Assembly: GCA_020062665.1 (NCBI GenBank)
Contig: JAGUVW010000022.1
Location: 62,001 to 126,000 of the forward strand
Direction: 5' to 3'
From: Pseudomonadales bacterium
Lineage (GTDB): Bacteria > Pseudomonadota > Gammaproteobacteria > Pseudomonadales > Ketobacteraceae
Length of the DNA stretch: 64,000 bases
This document shows, in pieces, positions 22,989-42,931 of the stretch; positions within the stretch are counted from its first letter, which is position 1; the number at the start of each line of letters is the position of its first letter. The notes beneath the pieces were generated by a model. That model ran no database searches. It was not told the origin of the DNA and saw only the letters and a list, made by a program, of their open reading frames with translations. Position numbers and translations under genes: made by a program.

Positions 22989-23387
22989 ATGCTGAAAGGA
23001 AGCTGTCTGTGCGGCGGCGTACAATACGAATACAACGGTGAAATCACCGAACTGGCCGTGTGCCACTGCAACCAGTGCAAGCGCGCACAAGGCACCGCAT
23101 TCGTCACCAACGCCCCGATCGACTACCACAAGTTCGTCATCCTGCACGGCAAGGGCCTGCTGAAAGCCTACGAATCCAGCCCCAACAAAAACCGCGTCTT
23201 CTGCTCCCGCTGCGGCAGCCCCCTGTTCAGCCAGCGCATCGACGCACCGGACACCATCCGCCTGCGAGTCGGCACCATCACCGAAGGCCACATCCCCGAA
23301 CCGGACTACCAGATCTATTGCGACTTCAAAGCCGACTGGTGCGTATTGAGCGACGACAAGCCCAAATACCCGTTGGGTAAGGTCTGA
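22989..23387 (+). CDS. GFA-family (glutathione-dependent formaldehyde-activating-like) protein
   Basis: A 132-aa zinc protein. Cysteine motifs GSCLCGGVQYEYNG (residues 4-17), CHCNQCKRAQGTAF and CSRCGSPLFS are the GFA family signature that builds two zinc sites. The biochemical role of most members is not known. GGAGGG is 6 bases before ATG 22989. It is convergent with the 162-aa unknown gene at 23528. Confidence 0.92.
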   Translation: MLKGSCLCGGVQYEYNGEITELAVCHCNQCKRAQGTAFVTNAPIDYHKFVILHGKGLLKAYESSPNKNRVFCSRCGSPLFSQRIDAPDTIRLRVGTITEGHIPEPDYQIYCDFKADWCVLSDDKPKYPLGKV

Positions 23388-23418
23388 ATCCTGTTTAGAT
23401 ACTCGGCTGATCGATTTT

Positions 23419-23454
23419 CATACTCTGAGAATCATTCAGGATGCTCAGAGTATG
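23419..23454. repeat. 11-bp inverted repeat near copy A module
   Basis: CATACTCTGAG (23419-23429) and CTCAGAGTATG (23444-23454) form a perfect 11-bp stem with a 14-base loop. It lies between the convergent GFA gene and copy A, next to GGCTGATCGATTT, a sequence also found beside copy B at about 40829. Confidence 0.7.
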
Positions 23455-23480
23455 GTTTCAGGATATTCGCCCTACCCTGC

Positions 23481-23507
23481 AACCATGACGGGAAACCCCG
23501 CCATGAT
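23481..23507 (-). terminator. 3' hairpin of copy A with GGAAACC loop
   Basis: CATGACGGG and CCCCGCCATG flank AAA about 20 bp beyond the copy A stop. Copy B has a corresponding hairpin with the same GGAAACC centre at 41126-41149, so it belongs to the duplicated module. There is no T-tract. Confidence 0.45.
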
Positions 23508-23527
23508 TGCCCCGGTATCAACCGACC

Positions 23528-24016
23528 TTAATCAGGGTCGGTAACGACCTCTGCCTTCTTGCGGCGGCCACCGGTAAAGCGCGAAGAAAGATCCTCGTAA
23601 ATCGCCTTGGCCTTCACCACACCATTGGCTGCCAGCAGCTTGATGTTCTGATAGAACATAGTGGCACCGCTCAGCGCCTCGGCACCGGTCAGCATCACCG
23701 TATCATCCAGCGCCACCATCAGCGGGTTCAGCTTGCGCTGATAATTGGAGAGACGCGCATTATTGGTGACCGACCGGTTGAACCACGCCAGATCCAGAAA
23801 CACCGGCACGGCCTCGGGGTTTTGGCCGGCATACTCCTGGCATTTATCTACCCAGCCCTGCTTTTTATCCCCCTTTTTGTGCAACTCCCTGCGCTCTTCA
23901 GCCGTCAGCGTTGACAGTATCACCAACATCTCCAGGGTCAGCTCATCAATCATGCCGTTGATACGGCGATCCATCTCATCCGATATTTCAAAATCGGCCC
24001 TACTATCCTGCGACAT
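23528..24016 (-). CDS. Conserved protein of unknown function, copy A (162 aa)
   Basis: A 162-aa soluble protein beginning MSQDSRADFEISDEMDRRIN. It aligns without gaps to copy B (41165-41653) with about 101 of 162 identical residues; the most conserved part is residues 98-150 (MVALDDTVMLTGAEAL to IYEDLSSRF, with FYQNIKLLAANGVVKAKAIY). The sequence is mostly helical, with no membrane segment or catalytic motif I can name; it fits a recurrent ~165-aa family seen in several phyla. AAGGAGG is an ideal RBS. Its ~200-bp upstream leader is also shared with copy B, and beyond it an integron-type cassette array begins. A ribosome-, envelope- or stress-related role would be guesswork. Confidence 0.75.
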   Translation of the reverse strand: MSQDSRADFEISDEMDRRINGMIDELTLEMLVILSTLTAEERRELHKKGDKKQGWVDKCQEYAGQNPEAVPVFLDLAWFNRSVTNNARLSNYQRKLNPLMVALDDTVMLTGAEALSGATMFYQNIKLLAANGVVKAKAIYEDLSSRFTGGRRKKAEVVTDPD

Positions 24017-24346
24017 CTGCCGCCTCCTTCGTAAAAGAATAAACGTTAAAAGCACGGGCAAAAAATTTGCCTCGTATTAGGAAGACGGGGGCGACGCAAA
24101 TAAATGGCAAATTCTGTGAAAAAAATGCCTCCGCCTAAGCGGGTTTGCCAGGGGAATGTATTGTGATAGGTTGGGGATGTCAGGCGGATTGACTTGGGGG
24201 TTGGGCTGGGCTGGGATGCCCGGCCTTGGGGGATTGGTAGTATGGGGTATGTGAGGGGCTGGGGTGTGGAACGTTATGTTTATGGTCAGAATTGGGTGTC
24301 CAGATTTGCAGGGTTACCAGACTTGGTAAGGTTGTGGATTGGGGGC
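24017..24346. other. Leader of copy A: shared non-coding module, no gene
   Basis: No gene is seen in this stretch. It shares several blocks in the same order with the leader of copy B (41654-42012): AAAGCACGGG...TTGCCTCGTAT...AAGAC, CCTAAGC-GGTTTGCC-GGG, and GATGTCAGGCGGATTGACTTGG (one mismatch in B). Base composition turns strongly G-rich towards the right, then AT-rich at GTTGAATAA (24347), where the cassette array begins. Confidence 0.65.
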
Positions 24347-24382
24347 GTTGAATAAACTGTTATGTGAATTTAAGGTGTTCAT

Positions 24383-25012
24383 TTGTATATTGATGACTAT
24401 GTAAAAGCAAAAAGGCCTTTGGGGTACTGGAGAGAGCTCCTGCACGAGTGGGTTCTGATGGTTCATCGGGTTTATCGAGTATCCGATAAAAAGGCGTCTG
24501 TTCATGCGGAAAAAGAGAGAGCCAATACTGGTCTGCTAGCAGCAGCTGCAACAAAAAATGGCTGGGTCGCACTCGAAGAATGTCGTACCGAAAAGGCGCA
24601 TAGGCATTTGAAGAAAACTACTTATGGTGGCCGTTGTGATTTGATGCTTTGGCGAGATATTCGGCATCATGAAATTGAAGCGAAGTTTTCGCGAATATCT
24701 ATAGCTGCTAGATCCAGTGTGCGCGTGGATAAAGCTTATGCAAAGGCAATAGCTGATTCTGCGAGGTCAACGTCAGCGGGTTATCGCTCAGAGAAGAAAA
24801 TCGCTGTGACCTATATTGTGCCGGTTATTAGGCCGAAGTTAATCGAATCACTAAGCGAATCTCAGATTGCGGATAAACTCCAAGATCTCGTTGGGTACAT
24901 TAAAAGCGAATTAGATCCTACGCTTTTGGCCTATGCGTTTCCTGGCCCCGTATCATTAGAAGGCAGCCCCAATATTGGCTTGGGTGTAATATTGATTGGC
25001 GATATCACATAA
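24383..25012 (+). CDS. Cassette protein with PD-(D/E)XK-like motif
   Basis: A 209-aa protein, probably starting at TTG 24383 with AAGGTG about 7 bases upstream; no better ATG keeps the conserved part. It is the first gene after the GTTGAATAA border. I do not recognise the family. It contains GGRCDLMLW (Asp86) followed after 12 residues by EIEAKFS (Glu99-x-Lys101), with an upstream acidic helix (Glu44 in HAEKERANTG). This spacing fits the D-Xn-ExK core of PD-(D/E)XK nuclease-like folds, so a nuclease or DNA-binding role is possible. Codon use is AT-rich compared with backbone genes. It ends next to attC-1. Confidence 0.6.
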   Translation: MYIDDYVKAKRPLGYWRELLHEWVLMVHRVYRVSDKKASVHAEKERANTGLLAAAATKNGWVALEECRTEKAHRHLKKTTYGGRCDLMLWRDIRHHEIEAKFSRISIAARSSVRVDKAYAKAIADSARSTSAGYRSEKKIAVTYIVPVIRPKLIESLSESQIADKLQDLVGYIKSELDPTLLAYAFPGPVSLEGSPNIGLGVILIGDIT

Positions 25013-25118
25013 TTTGCTGTACTCGGACCCAACTACGCGCCGCAATCTTGTGGTTTGCTGCGCAAGCTTTACCACAAGCTTGCTCTGCTCCGTTGGGCCT
25101 GTAAGCAAGGCGTTAAAT
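25010..25118 (+). other. attC-like integron recombination site 1
   Basis: A ~109-bp imperfect palindrome. The inner arms CTTGTGGT / ACCACAAG surround GCTGCGCAAG, the outer arms CCCAAC / GTTGGG and TTGCTGTAC / GTAAGCAA pair, and it ends in the core GCGTTAAAT. The left end (TAAT instead of TAAC) is degenerate. It is nearly identical to attC-4. Confidence 0.8.
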
Positions 25119-25140
25119 GAATAATCAAAATTGGTAGGAA

Positions 25141-26298
25141 ATGATGAGTACTGAAAAGAAAAGCCATTCTTCTGAAGAAAAGCCCGAAAATAAAGCCCGT
25201 ACGAGGAAGGTAAGAAAATATCCTTCTTGCACATTTGAAGACGCTATTGGATTGGCTAAAGCAATCCAGAAAAATGCGGGTAGCCAACAAATTAGGCGCA
25301 TTACATTATTCGATCTAATTGGAAAGGCTTCCGAGAGTGGGCCGTCTCGTGGTTGGGTTACTAACACAGCAAAGTATGGATTAATAAAGGGAAGCTCAAG
25401 CTCGGAATATCTTCAGCTGACTGATCTTGGATATAAAGTGACAGCAGAAGAGGTATCAGAATACGAGCGATCTAAAGCAGCCATTCAGTTGGCAATTCTC
25501 GATATTGAAATTTTCTCTTATCTGTTTCACACGTTTAAAGGTAACAAACTGCCCCAGCAGGTAGTTATGATAGATTCGCTGGATGGGCAGGATGTAGATA
25601 TAGATGATCGTCCTGCTGTTGTCGATACGTTCATAGTAAATCTGGAATACACTGGTTTGTTAAAGATGCTTTCTGGTGCTCAGCGCATTATAGAAGTAGA
25701 CCACGCGCTTGAAGAGAAGGAGAAGCAAAAGACAGCATTTCCCGTAGCGACTAATGGCAGAAAAGGTGTCAACGAATATCAGGGAGTCGTAACTTCTGGA
25801 AATTCGCACTTTGATTCCGCGTGTTTCTACATTACACCAATAGGTGAGGATGGTTCAGAGCAAAGGAAGCACTCAGACCTATTTCTGGGATCAATTGTAG
25901 AGCCGGCTATTGAACAATTAGGTCTTAAGGTGATTCGAGCTGACGGAATTGACATGCCTGGGATGATCACGAATCAAGTTATAGAGTACGTGCTCAATTC
26001 AAAGTTGGTAGTGGTTGATCTATCCTTTAACAACCCGAATGTTTTTTACGAGCTTGCGCTTCGCCATGCCACTCGTCTGCCTACTGTGCAGATAATTAGA
26101 AAAGGCGACAAGATTCCTTTCGATATTAGTCAATTTAGAACTCTGATTCTAGATTGCACGGACATATATACGCTTGTTCCGAAAATCGAAACATATAAGG
26201 CTGAAATTTCAACTTTAGCTAGGCAGGCGTTGGACAATCCAAAAGCAGCTGAAAACCCTGTGACATCTGTGTATCCAAATATAATGCTTACGATGTGA
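25141..26298 (+). CDS. Cassette protein with C-terminal nucleoside 2-deoxyribosyltransferase-like domain
   Basis: A 385-aa soluble protein. The basic N-tail is followed by a winged-helix-like part (residues 30-100, TFEDAIGLAKAIQK to YLQLTDLGYKV, resembling DUF5343-type domains), a helical middle, and a C-terminal domain from about 228: CFYITPIGEDGSEQRKHSDL, then VEPAIEQLGLKVIRADGI, then VVVDLSFNNPNVFYELALRH with Asp293 and Glu304. The D-x-S-x-x-N-P-N-V-x-x-E-L pattern is that of NDT/TIR-like nucleotide-cleaving folds. Related domains act as NAD or nucleotide-degrading effectors in antiphage systems, so a defence role is plausible but inferred. It is flanked by attC-1 and attC-2. Confidence 0.7.
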   Translation: MMSTEKKSHSSEEKPENKARTRKVRKYPSCTFEDAIGLAKAIQKNAGSQQIRRITLFDLIGKASESGPSRGWVTNTAKYGLIKGSSSSEYLQLTDLGYKVTAEEVSEYERSKAAIQLAILDIEIFSYLFHTFKGNKLPQQVVMIDSLDGQDVDIDDRPAVVDTFIVNLEYTGLLKMLSGAQRIIEVDHALEEKEKQKTAFPVATNGRKGVNEYQGVVTSGNSHFDSACFYITPIGEDGSEQRKHSDLFLGSIVEPAIEQLGLKVIRADGIDMPGMITNQVIEYVLNSKLVVVDLSFNNPNVFYELALRHATRLPTVQIIRKGDKIPFDISQFRTLILDCTDIYTLVPKIETYKAEISTLARQALDNPKAAENPVTSVYPNIMLTM

Positions 26299-26308
26299 AT
26301 TCATTTAA

Positions 26309-26413
26309 TAACCAGCAGCGGAAAAAACTACGCTCCGGCAACTTGTGGTTTGCTGCGCAAACTATACCACAAGTTGCCTCCACTCCGTTTTTACGCTGTG
26401 GTTGGCGTTATAC
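26309..26413 (+). other. attC-like integron recombination site 2
   Basis: A well-formed site: starts TAACCAGC, has a perfect inner stem GGCAACTTGTGGT / ACCACAAGTTGCC around TTGCTGCGCAAACTAT, outer arms CGGAAAAA / TTTTTACG, and ends GGCGTTATAC (G-TTRTRY-like core). Confidence 0.9.
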
Positions 26414-26434
26414 GAATATCAGATTAGGTGCCGA

Positions 26435-27256
26435 ATGAAGCAGCAGCTTTATAAAAAAGCAGTAGAGTTTGTACAGATAAATGGTGGCGATGGGTTTGGA
26501 GAAAATAATTTGCAGAGATACATGGCGCCAGATAAAGAGCGAGAAAAACCGCCATCAATTAACAGAATATATCAATCGATACTTGAGTCCGCGCAAAATG
26601 TTCAAATGAGTCCAAATGTCATTGGTGGCGCCATAAGCGGTGAGAAAGGAAATATAAAACCACTCGGTAAATTTTTGTTTGATTTTTCACCATCAAATGT
26701 TTTCGATGCGTATGGAGGTATTTCTGCCGAAGAATTGCTTGAGAAAATAATTCCAACTTTATTTACGAAACCCCATCAAGAGAAAAGGAAGCTTTGGCTT
26801 CGGTATTGCAAGACCATCATATCAGCCGCTAGATTTCTCAACCAGTTTCCCGGCCATGAATCCTTCTACGAATTTGTGGAAGGATATTATGCTGATGATC
26901 GAATAAAGCCATTTTTGCCAATGCTTTTAAGCTATGAGATTGATGGCATTGGGTTTGCTCTAGCATGTGATTTTTTAAAGGAACTTGGGTATAGCCAATA
27001 CGGGAAGCCGGATACACACATTAAGGATATTTTCATCGAACTGAATTTACTAAATGGTGTTCAAAAACAATCATCTAAAGCTGACTATTTATCGTTGAAG
27101 CTAATAGACGAAATTGCAGCGTTGAACGATGTCACTCCATATGCGGTAGACAAAATGTTGTGGTTGGTATGCAGCGGCGACTACTACTACGAGAAGCGCA
27201 AAATTGGCAATAAAAAAAATGATTTCATTGCCTTTGCCAAAGCGTCAGCTAAGTAA
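26435..27256 (+). CDS. Cassette protein with HhH-glycosylase-like C-terminal region
   Basis: A 273-aa protein starting at ATG 26435, 22 bp after attC-2. The segment IDGIGFALACDFLKELGYSQYG-KPDTHI (about residues 169-196) resembles the helix-hairpin-helix (GIG) and following Asp/His stretch of HhH-type DNA glycosylases, and the spacing KPDxHIKDIF is recurrent in such cassette proteins. The rest is helical. A DNA-base-processing role is possible; the catalytic Lys of glycosylase/lyases is not identified. AT-rich codon use and attC sites on both sides mark it as a cassette gene. Confidence 0.6.
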   Translation: MKQQLYKKAVEFVQINGGDGFGENNLQRYMAPDKEREKPPSINRIYQSILESAQNVQMSPNVIGGAISGEKGNIKPLGKFLFDFSPSNVFDAYGGISAEELLEKIIPTLFTKPHQEKRKLWLRYCKTIISAARFLNQFPGHESFYEFVEGYYADDRIKPFLPMLLSYEIDGIGFALACDFLKELGYSQYGKPDTHIKDIFIELNLLNGVQKQSSKADYLSLKLIDEIAALNDVTPYAVDKMLWLVCSGDYYYEKRKIGNKKNDFIAFAKASAK

Positions 27257-27262
27257 GTCTTA

Positions 27263-27329
27263 TAACAATCAGCAGCAGCGGAAAAATCTACGCGCCGCCA
27301 ATTTTTGGTTCGCTGTGCAGGGCGTTGTG
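27263..27329 (+). other. Truncated attC-like site 3
   Basis: Starts TAACAATCAGCAGCAGCGG, shares the left half of attC-2 (AGCGGAAAAA-CTACGC, then GCCAATTTTTGGTTCGCTG), then jumps directly to GGCGTTGTG. The right half of the stem is missing, so it is probably no longer a good recombination substrate. Confidence 0.65.
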
Positions 27330-27380
27330 AGCCAGAGTTGCTATAGCTCAGGATACGGATTCACATCTGGAATAATACAT

Positions 27381-28034
27381 ATGGATACCTCCTCGATTTA
27401 TGAAAATTGCGATCAATATACTGCGTTTCCAGATGCAGACCAGGTGTTTTATTCTGATTACGAAAAGGAAGTCATGTTACCGTTGGGCATGATGCATGTT
27501 GATTTCGACGGTGTTCAATATGATGTTCTGCTGGCTGTTCCGACAATTAGTCACGAAGAAGGAATCATTGGATACGAGAATATTGGCGAACGCTGTGGCG
27601 AATTTTGGATCACATACTCGAACGTCGATGGAAAGTGGGCGTTGGACAGTTTGCCTGATGAGCTATGTGAGCTGGAGTTTGCGCCACCGAAGGTTAGGGA
27701 AAGATATGAGGAACGAAAAGCGCTTTTTGAGATACATCGCTGTCTGCCTTTTGAGGGAGATATAAATCACAAACTTCCGCTACTACGTTTGGGGCATGAA
27801 ATAACGAATCTAAGCAATTTGTTCACACGTCTTGACAGATATATACCTAGCTCCTTACGAGATATTCCTTACGGATACGGGGAAAAGTTAGTGACATTTG
27901 AAAGCTCAGAAGGTGGCGAGTATATTTACTTAGGCCGTTTGACTGGTTGGATTTATTGCGGTTTATTTGGCGACTTCATGTTTTTCTTCAACACAGTTCT
28001 AGGGCGAGTGTTGGTCGTAGTTGATTATGATTAA
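27381..28034 (+). CDS. Cassette protein of unknown function (217 aa)
   Basis: A 217-aa soluble protein starting ATG 27381 (MDTSSIYENCDQY), 52 bp after truncated attC-3. An open frame continues upstream through the attC remnant, but that part is not coding-like. I do not recognise the family. It is rich in aromatic residues (DYEKEVMLPLGMMHVDFDGV, GWIYCGLFGDFMFFFNTVLG). No signal peptide or catalytic motif is evident. It ends just before attC-4, as expected for a cassette gene. Confidence 0.55.
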   Translation: MDTSSIYENCDQYTAFPDADQVFYSDYEKEVMLPLGMMHVDFDGVQYDVLLAVPTISHEEGIIGYENIGERCGEFWITYSNVDGKWALDSLPDELCELEFAPPKVRERYEERKALFEIHRCLPFEGDINHKLPLLRLGHEITNLSNLFTRLDRYIPSSLRDIPYGYGEKLVTFESSEGGEYIYLGRLTGWIYCGLFGDFMFFFNTVLGRVLVVVDYD

Positions 28035-28057
28035 ATAACTACCTCTCATTTTGCTCA

Positions 28058-28168
28058 TAACAAGTTGCTGTACTCGAACCCAGCTACGCGCCGCAAGCTT
28101 GTGGTTTGCTGCGCAAACTTTGCCACAAGCTTGCTCTTCTCCGTTGGGCCGGTAAGCAAGGCGTCAGC
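28058..28168 (+). other. attC-like integron recombination site 4
   Basis: Starts TAACAAGTTGCTGTACTCG, inner arms GCAAGCTTGTGG / CCACAAGCTTGC around TTTGCTGCGCAAACTT, outer arms CCCAG / GTTGGG and TTGCTGTAC / GTAAGCAA, ending GGCGTCAGC. The 3' core is degenerate (GTCAGC for GTTRRRY). It is nearly identical to attC-1 in the central part. Confidence 0.8.
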
Positions 28169-28189
28169 TTTCCGAATAGAGGCGAGACA

Positions 28190-28999: not shown

Positions 29000-29042
29000 C
29001 CATGATAAACAATAAAGCTACGCCGGCGCTTGAGGCGTTAGC
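28997..29042 (+). other. Short truncated attC-like site 5
   Basis: TAAC at 28997 and core GCGTTAGC at 29036-29042 enclose only about 46 bases (…AAGCTACGCCGGCGCTTGAGG…). The outer boxes are kept but the hairpin stem is lost. Confidence 0.45.
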
Positions 29043-38358: not shown

Positions 38359-40791
38359 ATGTTTTCCGACACTATTGCCGGCTGGAAGATCTTCCGCAAC
38401 GCACAACGCCGCAAAGAAGCCCAGGCCATGATGGACGCCTTCAGCAAATCCATGGCCATCATCGAATTCACACTGGATGGCACCATCATCACAGCCAATG
38501 ATAATTTTCTGCGTGCGATGGGCTACTCGCTGGGCGAAATCCAGGGGCAACATCACCGCATGTTTGTCGAACCCGGCTATCAGAACAGCAACGACTATCA
38601 CGCCTTCTGGGAACGACTGGGGCGCGGACAATTCGAGTCCGGGCAATACCTGCGCCTCGGCAAGGGCGGCAAACCGATCTGGATCGAAGCCACCTACAAC
38701 CCCATCTTCGACGCCAAAGGCCACCCCTACAAAGTGGTCAAATTCGCCACCGACATTACCGCCAGAAAACTGCGCGATGCAGATTACGAAGGACAGATTG
38801 CCGCGATTGGAAAATCCATGGCTGTCATCGAATTCTCGCTCGACGGCAAGATACTGACCGCCAACAGCAACTTTCTGGATGCAATCGGCTATTCACTGAA
38901 TGAAATCGTCGGCCAGCATCACAGCATGTTCGTTGATTCTGCCCAGCGCGACAGCATCGAGTACCGCCGATTCTGGGAAAAACTCGGCCGCGGCGAATAT
39001 GATTCAGGACAATACCTGCGTATCGGCAAGGGCGGCAGACAGATATGGATACAGGCCTCCTACAACCCCATCGTGGATGCTGCCGGCAAATATTTCAAAG
39101 TCGTGAAATTTGCCACCGACATCACCCAGCAGAAATTGCGTGACGCCGAATCGGCAGGACAAATCGCAGCGATTGGAAAATCCATGGCCGTGATCGAATT
39201 CCTGCCCGACGGCACCATCCTGACCGCCAACGACAATTTTCTGCAGACACTCGGCTATTCACTCGACGAGATCAAAGGCAAGCATCACAGCCTGTTCGTC
39301 GATGCAACCTACCGGCAGAGCCCGGAATACCGCATGCTCTGGGACAAGCTGGGCCGTGGCGAATACGACTCCGGCCAATACCTGCGTATCGGCAAGGGCG
39401 GCAAACGGGTATGGATACAGGCGTCGTACAACCCCATCCTGGATGCCAATGGCAAGTGCTTCAAGGTAGTGAAATTTGCCGCCGACATTACCGCACAGAA
39501 GGAACGCAACGCGGAATTCGAAGGCCAGCTCGCCGCCATCGACAAATCCATGGCTGTCATCGAATTCACACTGGACGGAAAAATCCTCAAGGCCAATGAA
39601 AACTTCCTCAAAACCATGGGCTATTCGGCGGCGGAAATCACCGGCCAGCATCACGGCATGTTTGTCGATCCCACCTATCGCCAAAGCGCGGAATACAAAC
39701 TGTTTTGGGAACGGCTCGGCCGGGGCCAATACGACGCCGGGCAATATCTGCGCCTTGGCAAGAACGGCAAAAAAATATGGATTCAGGCCTCCTACAACCC
39801 GATCCTGGATGCCAACGGCGTTCCCTTCAAAGTCGTGAAATACGCAACGGATATCACCGAACAGAAAAATGCCGCCGCCACCACACAGCAAGCCATCGAA
39901 GACGTCATGCGGGTCATGAGCGCGGTTGCCTCCGGCAATCTGTCCGAGAAAATCACGCGGGATTACGACGGCCCGTTTGCACAGCTCAAGGCCAATGTGA
40001 ACGATACCTGCAACACACTCACCGAGATCATCAGCAACATCCGGCAAGCATCGACGCTGATCACATCGGCGGCCACCGAAATTGCCGATGGCAACTCTGA
40101 TCTGAGCCAGCGCACCGAAGAGCAAGCGTCATCACTGGAAGAAACGGCCGCCAGCATGGAAGAGATGATGAGCACGGTGAAGCAAAGCACCGAAAACGCC
40201 ATACAGGCCAGCCAGCTTGCAGCTGACGTGCTGCGTCGCGCCCGCTCCGGCGGCGAAGTGGTAGAACGCGCCGTTCAGGCCATGGACGAGATCAACCGTT
40301 CCAGCAAACGGGTTGCCGACATCATCGGCGTCATCAATGACATTGCCTTTCAAACCAATCTGCTGGCATTGAATGCAGCAGTCGAAGCGGCGCGCGCCGG
40401 CGACCAGGGCCGGGGCTTTGCTGTAGTGGCCGGCGAAGTCCGCAATCTGGCCCAACGCTCGGCAGGCGCTGCAAAGGAAATCAAGGAACTGATCAGCGAC
40501 AGCGTAAGCAAAGTCGCCGATGGCACCCAGTTTGTGAATCAATCCGGCCAAACCCTGAAAGAGCTGGTCGAAACCATCGGCAAAGTGGACATGATGATGC
40601 GCGAAATCAGCGACACCTCCCAGGCACAAAAGGCCGGCATCGAACAGGTAAACCAGGCCGTCGCGCAAATGGATCAAGTGACCCAACAGAATGCCGCACT
40701 GGTGGAAGAAGCAACCGCCGCCAGCGAAGCCATGGCGGAACAATCACAAAAACTGCAAGAGATGGTGGGCTTCTTCCGGGTGGGCAGCTAG
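38359..40791 (+). CDS. Soluble methyl-accepting chemotaxis protein with four tandem PAS repeats
   Basis: An 810-aa chemoreceptor/energy-sensor without membrane helices, so cytoplasmic. Four near-identical PAS modules of 122 residues begin at about residues 31, 153, 275 and 397 (each SMAxIEF-x-DG-I-ANxNFL...GYS...GQHH-MFVDP... GQYLR-GKGG-WI-A-YNP... KVVKFATDIT), so the DNA holds a 4 x 366-bp in-frame repeat (38449-39900). A HAMP-like stretch (EDVMRVMSAVASGNLSEKITRDYDG) leads to the MCP signalling domain, with hairpin tip IAFQTNLLALNAAVEAARAG and methylation helices. PAS domains of this type (with H/W-rich loops) often bind heme or flavin, giving redox or oxygen sensing; cofactor not determined. 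Start MFSDTIAGWK. Confidence 0.92.
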   Translation: MFSDTIAGWKIFRNAQRRKEAQAMMDAFSKSMAIIEFTLDGTIITANDNFLRAMGYSLGEIQGQHHRMFVEPGYQNSNDYHAFWERLGRGQFESGQYLRLGKGGKPIWIEATYNPIFDAKGHPYKVVKFATDITARKLRDADYEGQIAAIGKSMAVIEFSLDGKILTANSNFLDAIGYSLNEIVGQHHSMFVDSAQRDSIEYRRFWEKLGRGEYDSGQYLRIGKGGRQIWIQASYNPIVDAAGKYFKVVKFATDITQQKLRDAESAGQIAAIGKSMAVIEFLPDGTILTANDNFLQTLGYSLDEIKGKHHSLFVDATYRQSPEYRMLWDKLGRGEYDSGQYLRIGKGGKRVWIQASYNPILDANGKCFKVVKFAADITAQKERNAEFEGQLAAIDKSMAVIEFTLDGKILKANENFLKTMGYSAAEITGQHHGMFVDPTYRQSAEYKLFWERLGRGQYDAGQYLRLGKNGKKIWIQASYNPILDANGVPFKVVKYATDITEQKNAAATTQQAIEDVMRVMSAVASGNLSEKITRDYDGPFAQLKANVNDTCNTLTEIISNIRQASTLITSAATEIADGNSDLSQRTEEQASSLEETAASMEEMMSTVKQSTENAIQASQLAADVLRRARSGGEVVERAVQAMDEINRSSKRVADIIGVINDIAFQTNLLALNAAVEAARAGDQGRGFAVVAGEVRNLAQRSAGAAKEIKELISDSVSKVADGTQFVNQSGQTLKELVETIGKVDMMMREISDTSQAQKAGIEQVNQAVAQMDQVTQQNAALVEEATAASEAMAEQSQKLQEMVGFFRVGS
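38449..39876 (+). repeat. Four in-frame 366-bp tandem repeats (PAS modules)
   Basis: Units start at about 38449, 38815, 39181 and 39547, each encoding SMAxIEF and ending in a TDIT motif. All four PAS modules of the chemoreceptor share most residues, so the gene expanded by recent tandem duplication and is a candidate for length variation by homologous recombination. Confidence 0.9.
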
Positions 40792-40930
40792 GACATCCCT
40801 TTTGATGGATGAACAACCCCACCGGGATACCCGGCTGATCGATTTATATACTCGCCATATCAATTGACCATACTTGGACGATCAAATTTCATTCTCTGGG
40901 TATCCGTGAGGATACTCCCGACATCATTAC

Positions 40931-41059
40931 TGGATACCGCGAGAATACAAATTGATCAGCGGAGAATGGTGCTTGGATACGCCGGGAATATAAATTGATC
41001 TGCGCAGAGGGGTAGTTTGATACCCGGAGAATATAAATTGACCCGCGCAGAGGGGTCAG
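40931..41059. repeat. Three 43-bp tandem repeats
   Basis: Units start at 40931, 40974 and 41017 with TGGATAC/TGATACC. Each has the form GGATACC-GGAGAATATAAATTGAtC-GCGCAGAGGGG with substitutions. A degenerate fragment precedes them (GGGTATCCGTGAGG). AATTGATC and the GATCGATTT blocks also occur in the flanking sequence near copy A. Confidence 0.85.
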
Positions 41060-41099
41060 AGGATGTTCTGAGCATGCTAATGCAGGCTCCGGGAGGAAA

Positions 41100-41149
41100 G
41101 GCAGGGCCTGCGCCCTGCCCCGCAACCCTGCCAGGAAACCCCGGCAGGG
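41100..41149 (-). terminator. Tandem hairpins at the 3' end of copy B
   Basis: GGCAGGGC / GCCCTGCC (41100-41119) and CCCTGCC / GGCAGGG (41126-41149) around AGGAAACCCC. The second shares the GGAAACC centre with the hairpin behind copy A. No T-run. Confidence 0.5.
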
Positions 41150-41164
41150 CCGCCCGACCCGGTG

Positions 41165-41653
41165 TCAGGTTGCATCCCCATCCGGCGCGGGCTTCTTGCG
41201 ACGGCCACCGGGAAAGCGCACAGCCAGATCCTCATAGATGGCCTTGGCCTTCACCACACCGTTGGCAGCCAGCAACTTCACGTTCTGATAGAACTTCATC
41301 GCCCCCTGCAACGCCTCGGCACCGGTGAGCATGATCGTGTCATCCAGCGCCACCATCATCGGCTGCAACCGACGCTGATAGCTGGACAGACGCGAATTGC
41401 TGTTCACATCGCGGTTCAGGTGCTGCACGTTCAGGAACACCGGCACCATTTCGGGGTTCTGCGCCGAATACTCCACCGCCTTGCCCAGCAGACCATAGTT
41501 CTTCTGCCCCAGCTTGTGCAGTTCCTTGCGCTGCTCGACCGTCAACGTCCTCAGCAACGTCAACAGATCCGTCTCCAGCCCATCAAGATGAGCGTGAATA
41601 CGGCGATCGAGCTCGTCCGTGATATCGATATCGACACGATTATCCTGCGACAT
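41165..41653 (-). CDS. Conserved protein of unknown function, copy B (162 aa)
   Basis: A 162-aa protein, gapless paralogue of copy A (23528-24016), about 101 identical residues. It starts MSQDNRVDIDITDELDRRIH, with GGAG in the leader. Conserved segments include KELHKLGQKN, AQNPEMVPVFLNV, RLSSYQRRLQPMMVALDDT and FYQNVKLLAANGVVKAKAIY; a basic GGRRKK motif near the C-terminus is shared, whereas the last ~12 residues differ. Predicted soluble and helical. The identical gene length, shared upstream leader and matching position (left edge of AT-rich cargo) in the two regions indicate a duplicated module rather than two unrelated acquisitions. No function is known. Confidence 0.75.
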   Translation of the reverse strand: MSQDNRVDIDITDELDRRIHAHLDGLETDLLTLLRTLTVEQRKELHKLGQKNYGLLGKAVEYSAQNPEMVPVFLNVQHLNRDVNSNSRLSSYQRRLQPMMVALDDTIMLTGAEALQGAMKFYQNVKLLAANGVVKAKAIYEDLAVRFPGGRRKKPAPDGDAT

Positions 41654-42012
41654 CGGACTCCTCCTTATCTGTGAATGAAAGGGTTTAAGCACGGGGAAAA
41701 TATTTTCCTCGTATCAGAAAGACAGAGGTCACGTAAAAAAACGGCAATTTTTGGAAATAATCGGGGGGATGGTGAAAAGCGGTAGCGGGATGCCGCTACC
41801 TAAGCAGGTTTGCCGGGGATTTTAGGGATATGGTAACGTTGGGCTATGTCAGGCGAATTGACTTGGATTGGGCGTGAGGGGCGAAGGCGCCGGGGGCGGT
41901 TCGTTGAATTGGGATGGGTGGGGATTCATCCGGGCTGACAGGCGGGTTCTAGCTGCATGGCGTCGAACAGGGTTGGATGCTGGAGCGGAACGGTGGGTTT
42001 TGGGTTTGGGTA
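41654..42012. other. Leader of copy B: shared non-coding module, no gene
   Basis: No gene is seen here. It shares blocks with the leader of copy A (TTTAAGCACGGG...TTCCTCGTAT...AAGAC, CCTAAGCAGGTTTGCCGGG, TATGTCAGGCGAATTGACTTGG). A hairpin GGTAGCGG / CCGCTACC lies at 41781-41800. The AT-rich cargo begins at GTTGAATAA (42013). Confidence 0.6.
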
Positions 42013-42045
42013 GTTGAATAATATTCTTAGAGGTTTAGGCACTCT

Positions 42046-42753
42046 GTGGACAGTAAGCATGCAATAGAACTTGGTGCAAAAATAATGGAGCTTCAGTCCA
42101 TAATGATCGCATACGCAACAGATGGAAGGACTTCAGATCAGCCTCGTGCCTATCGTGATCTATATGCTGAAATGACCATTGAATTGGAAGCTGCAAAATA
42201 TGCTAATCCGAACCCCCATAAGTCTTTGGAGGTCTTTTACGCGTTTTGCAAACTGCAAGAAATGAAAACGTACGCAAGTCGTCGAATGTATGTTGAGGAA
42301 CTTTACTCAGATATTCTGCTAGATCTAAAACGAATACAAAAACATGCGCCTTCATCAAGAAACTGGGCCAAAGCAAATGATGCTCTTTCTGACGAATTGA
42401 CTCCAGTCCGTGCGCAGTGGTTAAAAGCAAAGAATTTTATTTTTTCATCAAGCCCTGATTTTGAAAATTCTATAAAAGAATCAATCAGCGCCATTGAGTC
42501 GTGCTTGATGGTTCTTCTAAATGATCCAAACGGCACCCTCGGAAAAATAATTAAGCAAGCAGGGCTTGACGCAGACATTGAGCGCCTAATAAGTCAAGCA
42601 TACGGTTATACCAGCAATAAGGCATTTGTACGGCACGGTGGCACGACCGCATCAAATCTTACAAAGGCAGAGGCTGAGTTTTTCTTAGAGTTTGCAGCGA
42701 CGTCTATCCTATACATTACTGCGAAGTTAAAAAATGAATCGAGAAACATTTAA
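42046..42753 (+). CDS. Abortive-infection (Abi_C/HEPN)-like protein
   Basis: A 235-aa soluble protein from GTG 42046, 25 bp after the GTTGAATAA border. Residues 1-130 are helical without recognised motif. The C-terminal part (139-235) resembles the Abi_C/HEPN-like domain found in abortive-infection proteins: SIKESISAIESCLMVLLND, NGTLGKIIKQAGLDADIERL, GYTSNKAFVRHGGT (RHGG at 196-199) and AEAEFFLEFAATSILYITAKL. Such domains often have RNase activity in phage defence or toxin-antitoxin systems. The activity is inferred from similarity of pattern only. The stop is immediately before attC-7. AT-rich codon use. Confidence 0.6.
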   Translation: MDSKHAIELGAKIMELQSIMIAYATDGRTSDQPRAYRDLYAEMTIELEAAKYANPNPHKSLEVFYAFCKLQEMKTYASRRMYVEELYSDILLDLKRIQKHAPSSRNWAKANDALSDELTPVRAQWLKAKNFIFSSSPDFENSIKESISAIESCLMVLLNDPNGTLGKIIKQAGLDADIERLISQAYGYTSNKAFVRHGGTTASNLTKAEAEFFLEFAATSILYITAKLKNESRNI

Positions 42754-42868
42754 CCAGAATTTTCAGTCGATTCCCTCAAAATTTACGCTCTGGCAATTTG
42801 CAGTTTGCTACGTAAACTTTCCCGCAAATTGCCACCGTTCCGCTTATCCACCGTGGAAGGCGTTATGC
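42751..42868 (+). other. attC-like integron recombination site 7
   Basis: Starts TAACCAGAATTTTCAG, inner arms GGCAATTTGC / GCAAATTGCC around AGTTTGCTACGTAAACTTTCCC, ending GGCGTTATGC. Its design matches attC-2 of region 1 closely, so both clusters carry the same attC type. Confidence 0.85.
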
Positions 42869-42931
42869 ACATAGGGACATCGCGCGAATAAAAGTATGGA
42901 CTGAACTAAATAAGGTTAAATATAAGTAGCA

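Follow-up and report, generated by a model that had tools for sequence, protein, structure and literature searches.

Two copies, A and B, of a duplicated gene block in a 64,000-nt stretch of DNA (the window, positions 62001-126000 of contig C66 of the 5.78-Mb draft genome G000) may each represent a module that pairs a protein with a DNA array, is specific for itself and sits in exchangeable islands, a reading to which we give about even chances. The module would comprise a gene for an all-helical protein of ~160 residues and, 3′ of it, a degenerate array in which palindromic units follow one another in tandem every 21 bp. The two-part architecture, the period, the dyads, the co-variation of unit and protein, the changing neighbours and the location of cassettes at attI-like sites were all computed.

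The preliminary description of this DNA had reported gapless 162-aa paralogues with about 101 identical residues, and the alignment bore this out (62% identity, i.e., ~100 residues; Table 1). The homology claimed for their leaders was likewise confirmed by BLASTN, which matched leader plus gene at 72% over 572 nt (E = 1.4e-81) and a further leader block of 78 nt (E = 1e-6); a leader-only local alignment scored 75, against a maximum of 35 among 300 shuffles. The 3′ hairpins reported behind both genes are real. The GGCTGATCGATTT block is indeed present in both 3′ flanks, but its nature as one unit of a tandem array (21 bp in A, 21/43 bp in B) had not been recognised. A simple old segmental duplication describes the relation between A and B but misses both the array and the family-wide pattern.

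Table 1. Positions in the window of the two modules and of the integron-related features beside them.
Feature	Position	Strand	Remarks
Short array behind A	23390..23475	-	Worn; ~4 units by eye; includes GGCTGATCGATTT block
Hairpin A	23484..23505	-	Between stop codon and array
Family gene A	23528..24016	-	162 aa, all-helical by prediction; ORF, alignment, structure model
Leader A	24017..24346	.	G-rich (cargo strand); blocks common to B and G001:C21
attI-like core A, GTTGAATAAACTGTTATGT	24347..24365	+	Inferred crossover G^TT at 24359
Cluster A cassette ORFs	24383..28034	+	Unknown; TIR-effector-like; Ogg-HhH-like; unknown
attC site, cluster A	25004..25121	+	129 bits; part of model's training set
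attC site, cluster A	26299..26416	+	118 bits; part of model's training set
attC, degenerate or truncated, cluster A	27260..27333	+	20.6 bits, E 0.014
attC site, cluster A	28055..28172	+	123 bits; part of model's training set
21/43-bp array behind B	40826..41062	-	~11 units of 21; includes GGCTGATCGATTT block
Hairpin B	41127..41149	-	Between stop codon and array
Family gene B	41165..41653	-	162 aa, 62% identical to A; ORF, alignment
Leader B	41654..42012	.	Leader alignment, blastn
attI-like core B, GTTGAATAATATTCTTAGA	42013..42031	+	More diverged than A
First cassette ORF, cluster B	42046..42753	+	Similar to PADLOC candidate PDC-S32
attC site, cluster B	42754..42871	+	94 bits; part of model's training set

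The leaders of A, B and several other copies in the genus contain G-quadruplex-like G-rich runs on the cargo strand. The ImuA-ImuB-DnaE2 genes lie to the right of cluster A. In the corresponding stretches read from five of the 13 relatives with a DnaE2 match (G001, G004, G008, G010 and part of G006), both the GFA gene found to the left of A and the chemoreceptor gene to the left of B are absent. Positions 38446-39843 of the window comprise four copies in tandem of a 366-bp repeat (identity to the first copy, 71-74% over 300 nt); these represent a multiplied 122-aa domain inside a chemoreceptor-like 880-aa ORF.

By sequence comparison, A and B belong to an undescribed bacterial protein family, with no usable match in Pfam, NCBIfam, PHROGs or the PDB sequences; the best hit in the latter, a designed TIM barrel (E = 0.0008), was taken as chance. 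In the AlphaFold2 model (mean pLDDT 90, pTM 0.68) the protein is all-helical and includes a helix of 55 residues; structure searches returned no convincing fold match (best Foldseek E, 0.67; best VIA Z, 4.7). The whole protein is slightly acidic, with a mean net charge of -3, and its last 20 residues are basic in 77 of 93 members. The family is sporadically distributed and often multi-copy. Going by record titles, its hosts include Bacteroidetes, Spirochaetia, Akkermansiaceae, Pyrinomonadaceae and Proteobacteria. Counting G000 itself, it was found in 3 of 115 relatives and 2 of 398 genomes of the phylum, and, including genomes already known to have it, in 31 of 395 genomes of the phylum of G504 and 7 of 198 of that of G497. 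With one query protein, phages gave no match and 72,556 plasmid records a single partial one. Family-wide counts are based on 95 located members; a weak sixth match in G000 (C60, E = 0.4) was left out of all of them.

Short repeats were first noticed behind six members (C8, A, B, G001:C21, C40 and G042:C11), and all 95 were then tested. The mean lag-21 excess was 0.102 downstream of the gene (n = 92), 0.013 upstream (n = 91) and 0.015 in distal DNA (n = 151), giving z values above the distal mean of 30, 28 and 24 at lags 21, 42 and 63, and of 25, 24 and 20 after dereplication to 71 members. An excess above 0.06 was found in 63/92 downstream, 8/91 upstream and 7/151 distal sequences; without the loci that had given the idea, the counts were 57/86 downstream versus 8/85 upstream, and with the 71 dereplicated members 49/70, 6/67 and 6/114. 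When flanks of 900 nt were scored against the distal 97.5th percentile, 61/93 downstream, 7/93 upstream and 4/152 distal flanks exceeded it, and 21 was the best lag in 54 of those 61; the array is thus undetectable in 32 of 93 members, about a third. Discrete arrays, of a median length of 226 nt, were located in 53 of 93 flanks and in 2 of 148 distal windows. The pattern extends over several phyla, with an excess above 0.06 in 7/9 members of the window's genus, 2/2 of G042, 8/9 from Spirochaetes, 22/37 of the Bacteroidota sample, 4/5 from Lysobacter genomes, 2/2 from Pyrinomonadaceae and 2/3 of G143. Akkermansiaceae had none at lag 21 (0/2), yet show a 22-bp spacing, and 18 of the 53 located arrays have a spacing other than 21.

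The arrays of the window are worn and make poor examples; they alone would not have shown the pattern, but the family does. In the flank of A (23300-23527), lag 21 scored 48/105 against a maximum of 44 in 1000 Markov shuffles, and the automatic extent of the array (~23271-23507) overlaps the end of the neighbouring gene. Behind B, 43-bp copies stand in register, with a score at lag 43 of 76/105 (shuffle maximum 47, 1000 Markov shuffles), the highest in the window. At lag 21 alone, A and B reach the 99.7th and 99.4th percentiles of the window, and two coding stretches score above A. The array locator passed neither of them, nor G001:C14.

The units show dyad symmetry (P ≤ 0.05 by column permutation in 37 of 53 arrays; Fisher 5e-39), in many cases with merely 0-2 unpaired central bases. 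Their sequences vary widely by lineage (ACCTCAGAGGT in L168, TGAACCAGTTCA in L137, TACCCGGGTA in L144), and paralogues within one genome have differing consensus units (L132, L133 and L136). Units resemble each other more as protein identity increases (Mantel r = 0.33, P = 0.001, n = 51), though the unit has changed in some close pairs (L089/L091 and L082/L168). A coding function as runs of seven codons was not supported: open frames occur in 18/53 arrays on the gene strand and in 22/53 on the other, against 6.7 and 9.7 expected from shuffles, an excess that says little because a stop-free 21-mer stays open when repeated, and 18 of the 53, as noted, do not keep to a spacing of 21.

We propose that the protein, which probably dimerises by way of its 55-residue helix and has a basic tail, would recognise its own array as double-stranded DNA by binding the dyads. 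As 21 bp equal two helical turns, the bound copies would line up on one face and might form a nucleoprotein filament. An array acting as RNA, with 21-nt units of the 3′ transcript binding and restraining the protein as in type III toxin-antitoxin systems, appears unlikely. It would suit a small protein beside tandem repeats, the lineage-specific co-variation of unit and protein and the defence neighbours found in the genus, and the gene strand is the one that folds somewhat better as RNA, as an RNA role would predict (stronger in 33 of 53, weaker in 20, P = 0.03). However, the repeats lie behind the gene, the 0-2 central bases are too few for an RNA loop, although neighbouring units could pair across ~10 nt, and the period stays close to 21 even though the sequences are unrelated, in line with the helical phasing of DNA. 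Moreover, a perfect 7-bp hairpin lies within 90 nt of the stop codon in 37/93 members (12/154 controls), with a T-run in 19, and mostly precedes the array (in 15 of 19 members that have a hairpin as well as an array).

The DNA directly 5′ of the gene carries mobile or defence-like cargo in 8 of the 9 genus copies. The C8 copy has an integron integrase (IntI) and cassettes there, and the A and B copies have cassettes. A CRISPR-type array with 28-bp repeats and a period of 61 (15 copies in the stretch examined, L022 8660-9558) starts ~0.4 kb 5′ of the C40 copy, and a 1357-aa gene, STAND-like by our reading and with no PADLOC match, precedes the C48 copy. In G001, the copies adjoin Lamassu (C21; LmuA 9e-69, LmuB 4e-128), an AAA/PHP protein whose best PADLOC match is Ppl (C14; 5e-26) and Gabija (C2; GajA 3e-297). 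The ninth is a weak second copy on the far side of the C48 STAND gene. In the wide family the genus pattern is diluted: only a minority of members have defence genes as neighbours, and these occur on either side. A one-sided enrichment of defence genes was not clear there: among the matches listed for the nearest ORFs (77 upstream, 75 downstream; 25 families of many), restriction genes appear on both sides and Cas1 upstream. Left out of these sets are A and B themselves, near-duplicates, members for which no ORF of ≥150 aa lies within range, and spurious ORFs of the C40 CRISPR array; for L020, the downstream ORF was picked by hand. One-sided AT-rich cargo was rejected for the wide family, since GC content was lower upstream in 44 of 79 pairs (P = 0.99). 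The contigs of L132-L134 (G858), L078, L080 and L095 end less than 2 kb from the 5′ side of the gene, as if the cargo there were repetitive or hard to assemble.

We compared 15 close pairs, 14 of which were assigned to a class (all but L155/L156). In five (C8/G001:C2, L163/L164, L097/L098, L099/L100 and L175/L176), homology covers the gene and all or part of the array, in four of them with ~0.1-0.2 kb of leader, and then gives way to unrelated DNA. Thus, it runs from -195 to +742 between C8 and G001:C2 (array end, 785) and from -94 to +872 between L163 and L164 (array end, 873), which share a syntenic locus but differ in the DNA flanking them on either side; L175 and L176, from one genome, are 97% identical over 1499 bp. 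In six pairs (A/B, A/G001:C21, L089/L091, L081/L082, L133/L136 and L132/L133) homology covers the gene, with the leader in five, but not the array; it continues far into the flanks in L088/L089 and L089/L090, and L143/L144 have none. A homology limit at the array end is therefore not a rule. The earlier suggestion that the gene is itself mobile finds some support, as some close copies share leader, gene and array between unrelated flanks, once at 97% within one genome.

These sharp limits in some pairs, together with the almost identical 1.5-kb copies, could indicate a transposon-like element whose one end is the array, with many binding sites, and whose recombinase is the protein. At G000:C43:53736-53835 (L199 5737-5836), an array resembling that of C8 stands as an orphan, as the 12 kb read around it revealed no family gene. 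Its neighbours, read by eye, are hsdR on one side and hsdS/hsdM on the other, in what looks like a type I restriction locus, and it too would fit such an element. However, no terminal repeats, inverted or otherwise, and no target duplications were seen by eye at the ends of L175 and L176, and Pfam and NCBIfam revealed no transposase or recombinase domain in the family proteins; we thus consider a transposon of this kind improbable.

Both leaders were described as ending in GTTGAATAA, with cargo directly after. The motif does end both, and its only occurrences on the two strands of the window start at 24347 and 42013, but cassette DNA starts ~12-13 bp further right. On sequence grounds, GTTGAATAA probably represents the left portion of an attI-type site. 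The core of A, GTTGAATAAACTGTTA, can be set against the IntI-adjacent core on C8, GTTGAATAAAACTGTTA; it is unchanged at G000:C59, has one extra A at C8 and differs by one base at G001:C28. The A and C59 sites match at 92% over 24 bp; A keeps a ~16-bp core and B is weaker. The C8 site matches that of C59 over 37 bp (89%) and that of G001:C28 over 41 bp (88%). The likeness of these last three ends by eye at G^TTAGC, which places the crossover 12-13 bp right of GTTGAATAA. For the start of the cassettes, comparing three other sites gives G^TTATGT in A and probably C^TTAGAG in B. The published core of delta-attI2, AATAAAATGTTRRRY, as given in the part of PMC12901181 consulted, resembles the C8 head core AATAAAACTGTTA; A has one A fewer.

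The cassettes end in folding attC sites, three strong and one weak in cluster A and one in cluster B. The alignment of seven attC sites from the window and C8 has 28 consensus pairs, 10 of them with compensatory changes. A covariance model built from it was run over G000 and G001, where it scored the best 150 of 468 and the best 150 of 509 candidates, respectively, so that further sites are possible. Omitting reverse-strand echoes of the same sites, it identified at least three attC on C8 beside IntI, four in the window and one on C59, and in G001 at least two on C28 and one on C31; all four of the window stand right of the two modules. GCGTTA-type ends at 29037, 30967, 31105 and 31748, none of which the model reports, suggest by their sequence worn attC remnants and older cassettes further right in cluster A. 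The TIR-effector-like ORF of that cluster spans 25141-26298 and the Ogg-HhH-like one 26345-27256, the latter below the cut-off. A Pfam scan of ten ORFs gave three matches (8-oxoguanine glycosylase-like, below the cut-off; short-chain dehydrogenase; RibD C-terminal) and a PADLOC scan of five window ORFs gave two (TIR effector-like; candidate PDC-S32).

Contig C66 gave no PF00589 match, and none of the window's ORFs matched the IntI profile. Clusters A and B resemble CALINs (clusters of attC sites lacking an integrase), with no integrase beside them. By default, IntegronFinder 2 asks for at least two attC sites per cluster (PMC9024848, in the part consulted); A has three strong ones and B one. 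Two matches to TIGR02249 exceed the cut-off in G000, on C8 and C77, and the C8 IntI (427 bits) is directly followed by a 158-aa family member. A and B may once have been complete integrons with the C8 order of cassettes, attI, intI and family gene, and have since lost intI: removal of intI from C8 would yield their layout, and the attI core is common to all three. Such an origin is doubtful, however. The C8 attI region aligns with the A and B leaders no better than shuffles, the leader of the C8 family gene has no blastn match, and its protein is only ~22% identical to A. In addition, the G001 ortholog of the C8 protein adjoins Gabija, and G001:C21, with leader blocks of the A/B type, has no attC or IntI in the 18 kb read.

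The idea that gene and leader form a landing module for cassettes holds in a narrow sense, as both leaders end in an attI-like core that is followed by attC cassettes. That they serve integron cassettes specifically, as a dedicated partner or landing module, is highly improbable, even though a family gene heads three of the four places in G000 with attC of this class. As a general rule it is contradicted. G000:C59 and G001:C28 have an attI-like site with attC but neither a family gene nor IntI in the 20 kb read around each, and G001:C31 has such an attC without the gene, which argues against the proposed linkage of gene and cassettes. Conversely, the partner role fails the refuting condition set in the preliminary description at G001:C21, where the gene and recognisable leader blocks stand beside Lamassu, and no such attC was found beside any of the three family genes of G001. 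An integron integrase as the usual neighbour was also rejected, since it adjoins 1 of 95 members (only at C8); weaker tyrosine recombinases (~200 bits) lie 3′ of two others. The gene-cassette link is thus not general.

We infer instead that the self-specific module stays in place while the cargo islands beside it, which comprise defence genes, a CRISPR array and integron cassettes, are exchanged, an exchange that it may promote or insulate. In the window, the cargo side would have acquired attI-like sites, and an IntI working in trans (most simply the C8 one) would have inserted attC cassettes there, giving CALIN-type arrays without an adjacent integrase. The presumed role of the C8 IntI is supported by attC sites of the same class. 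The module would explain the duplicated block of the window, where integron cassettes stand at attI-like sites away from their integrase. More tentatively, it may represent an undescribed class of elements, in which a helical protein with its own palindromic 21-bp array and a private repeat code for each paralogue anchors defence and integron cargo and helps its exchange in several phyla. If the protein reads its own array, the two would constitute a self-specific protein-DNA pair of a new kind, offering dozens of natural specificities to compare and a period that points to helical phasing. It would also provide a physical handle on why variable islands form beside one small gene. A 21-bp palindromic array behind a gene of ~160 codons would then serve as a search signature for more.

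No known kind unites these features in the libraries and literature searched; among open-licence PMC articles, titles and beginnings of abstracts contain no description of such a module that we could find. A complete integron has an IntI gene next to its array, and clusters A and B have none. Like CALINs, they carry attC sites with no integrase beside them. However, CALINs are not defined by any neighbouring gene, whereas here the helical-protein gene and its array adjoin, an arrangement found in none of the integron descriptions retrieved, in part, from open-licence PMC. The type III toxin-antitoxin systems (ToxIN, CptIN) likewise pair a small protein gene with a tandem nucleotide-repeat array, a pair that lies near defence genes in the window's genus. 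In these systems the tandem repeats precede the toxin gene, in contrast to the array of this family, which is located behind the gene, has a period of 21 and is palindromic and degenerate. No toxin family in Pfam, NCBIfam or PHROGs matches the protein; for a ToxN-like endoribonuclease in particular, these libraries gave no match and the all-helical model no convincing one in the PDB. REP elements and RAYTs similarly associate palindromic repeats with one small protein family, but REP elements are dispersed and the RAYT is a Y1_Tnp (HUH) transposase, for which 24 members gave no match at E ≤ 1. Replication iterons are tandem sites about two helical turns apart beside the gene of their binder, and the arrays described here also lie, at such a spacing, next to a putative binder gene. 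With one partial match in the plasmid records and no initiator match in Pfam, the family differs from them in being multi-copy and in having palindromic units that differ between paralogues of one genome. Finally, CRISPR arrays alternate near-identical repeats with unique spacers, whereas the arrays of this family consist of contiguous degenerate units.
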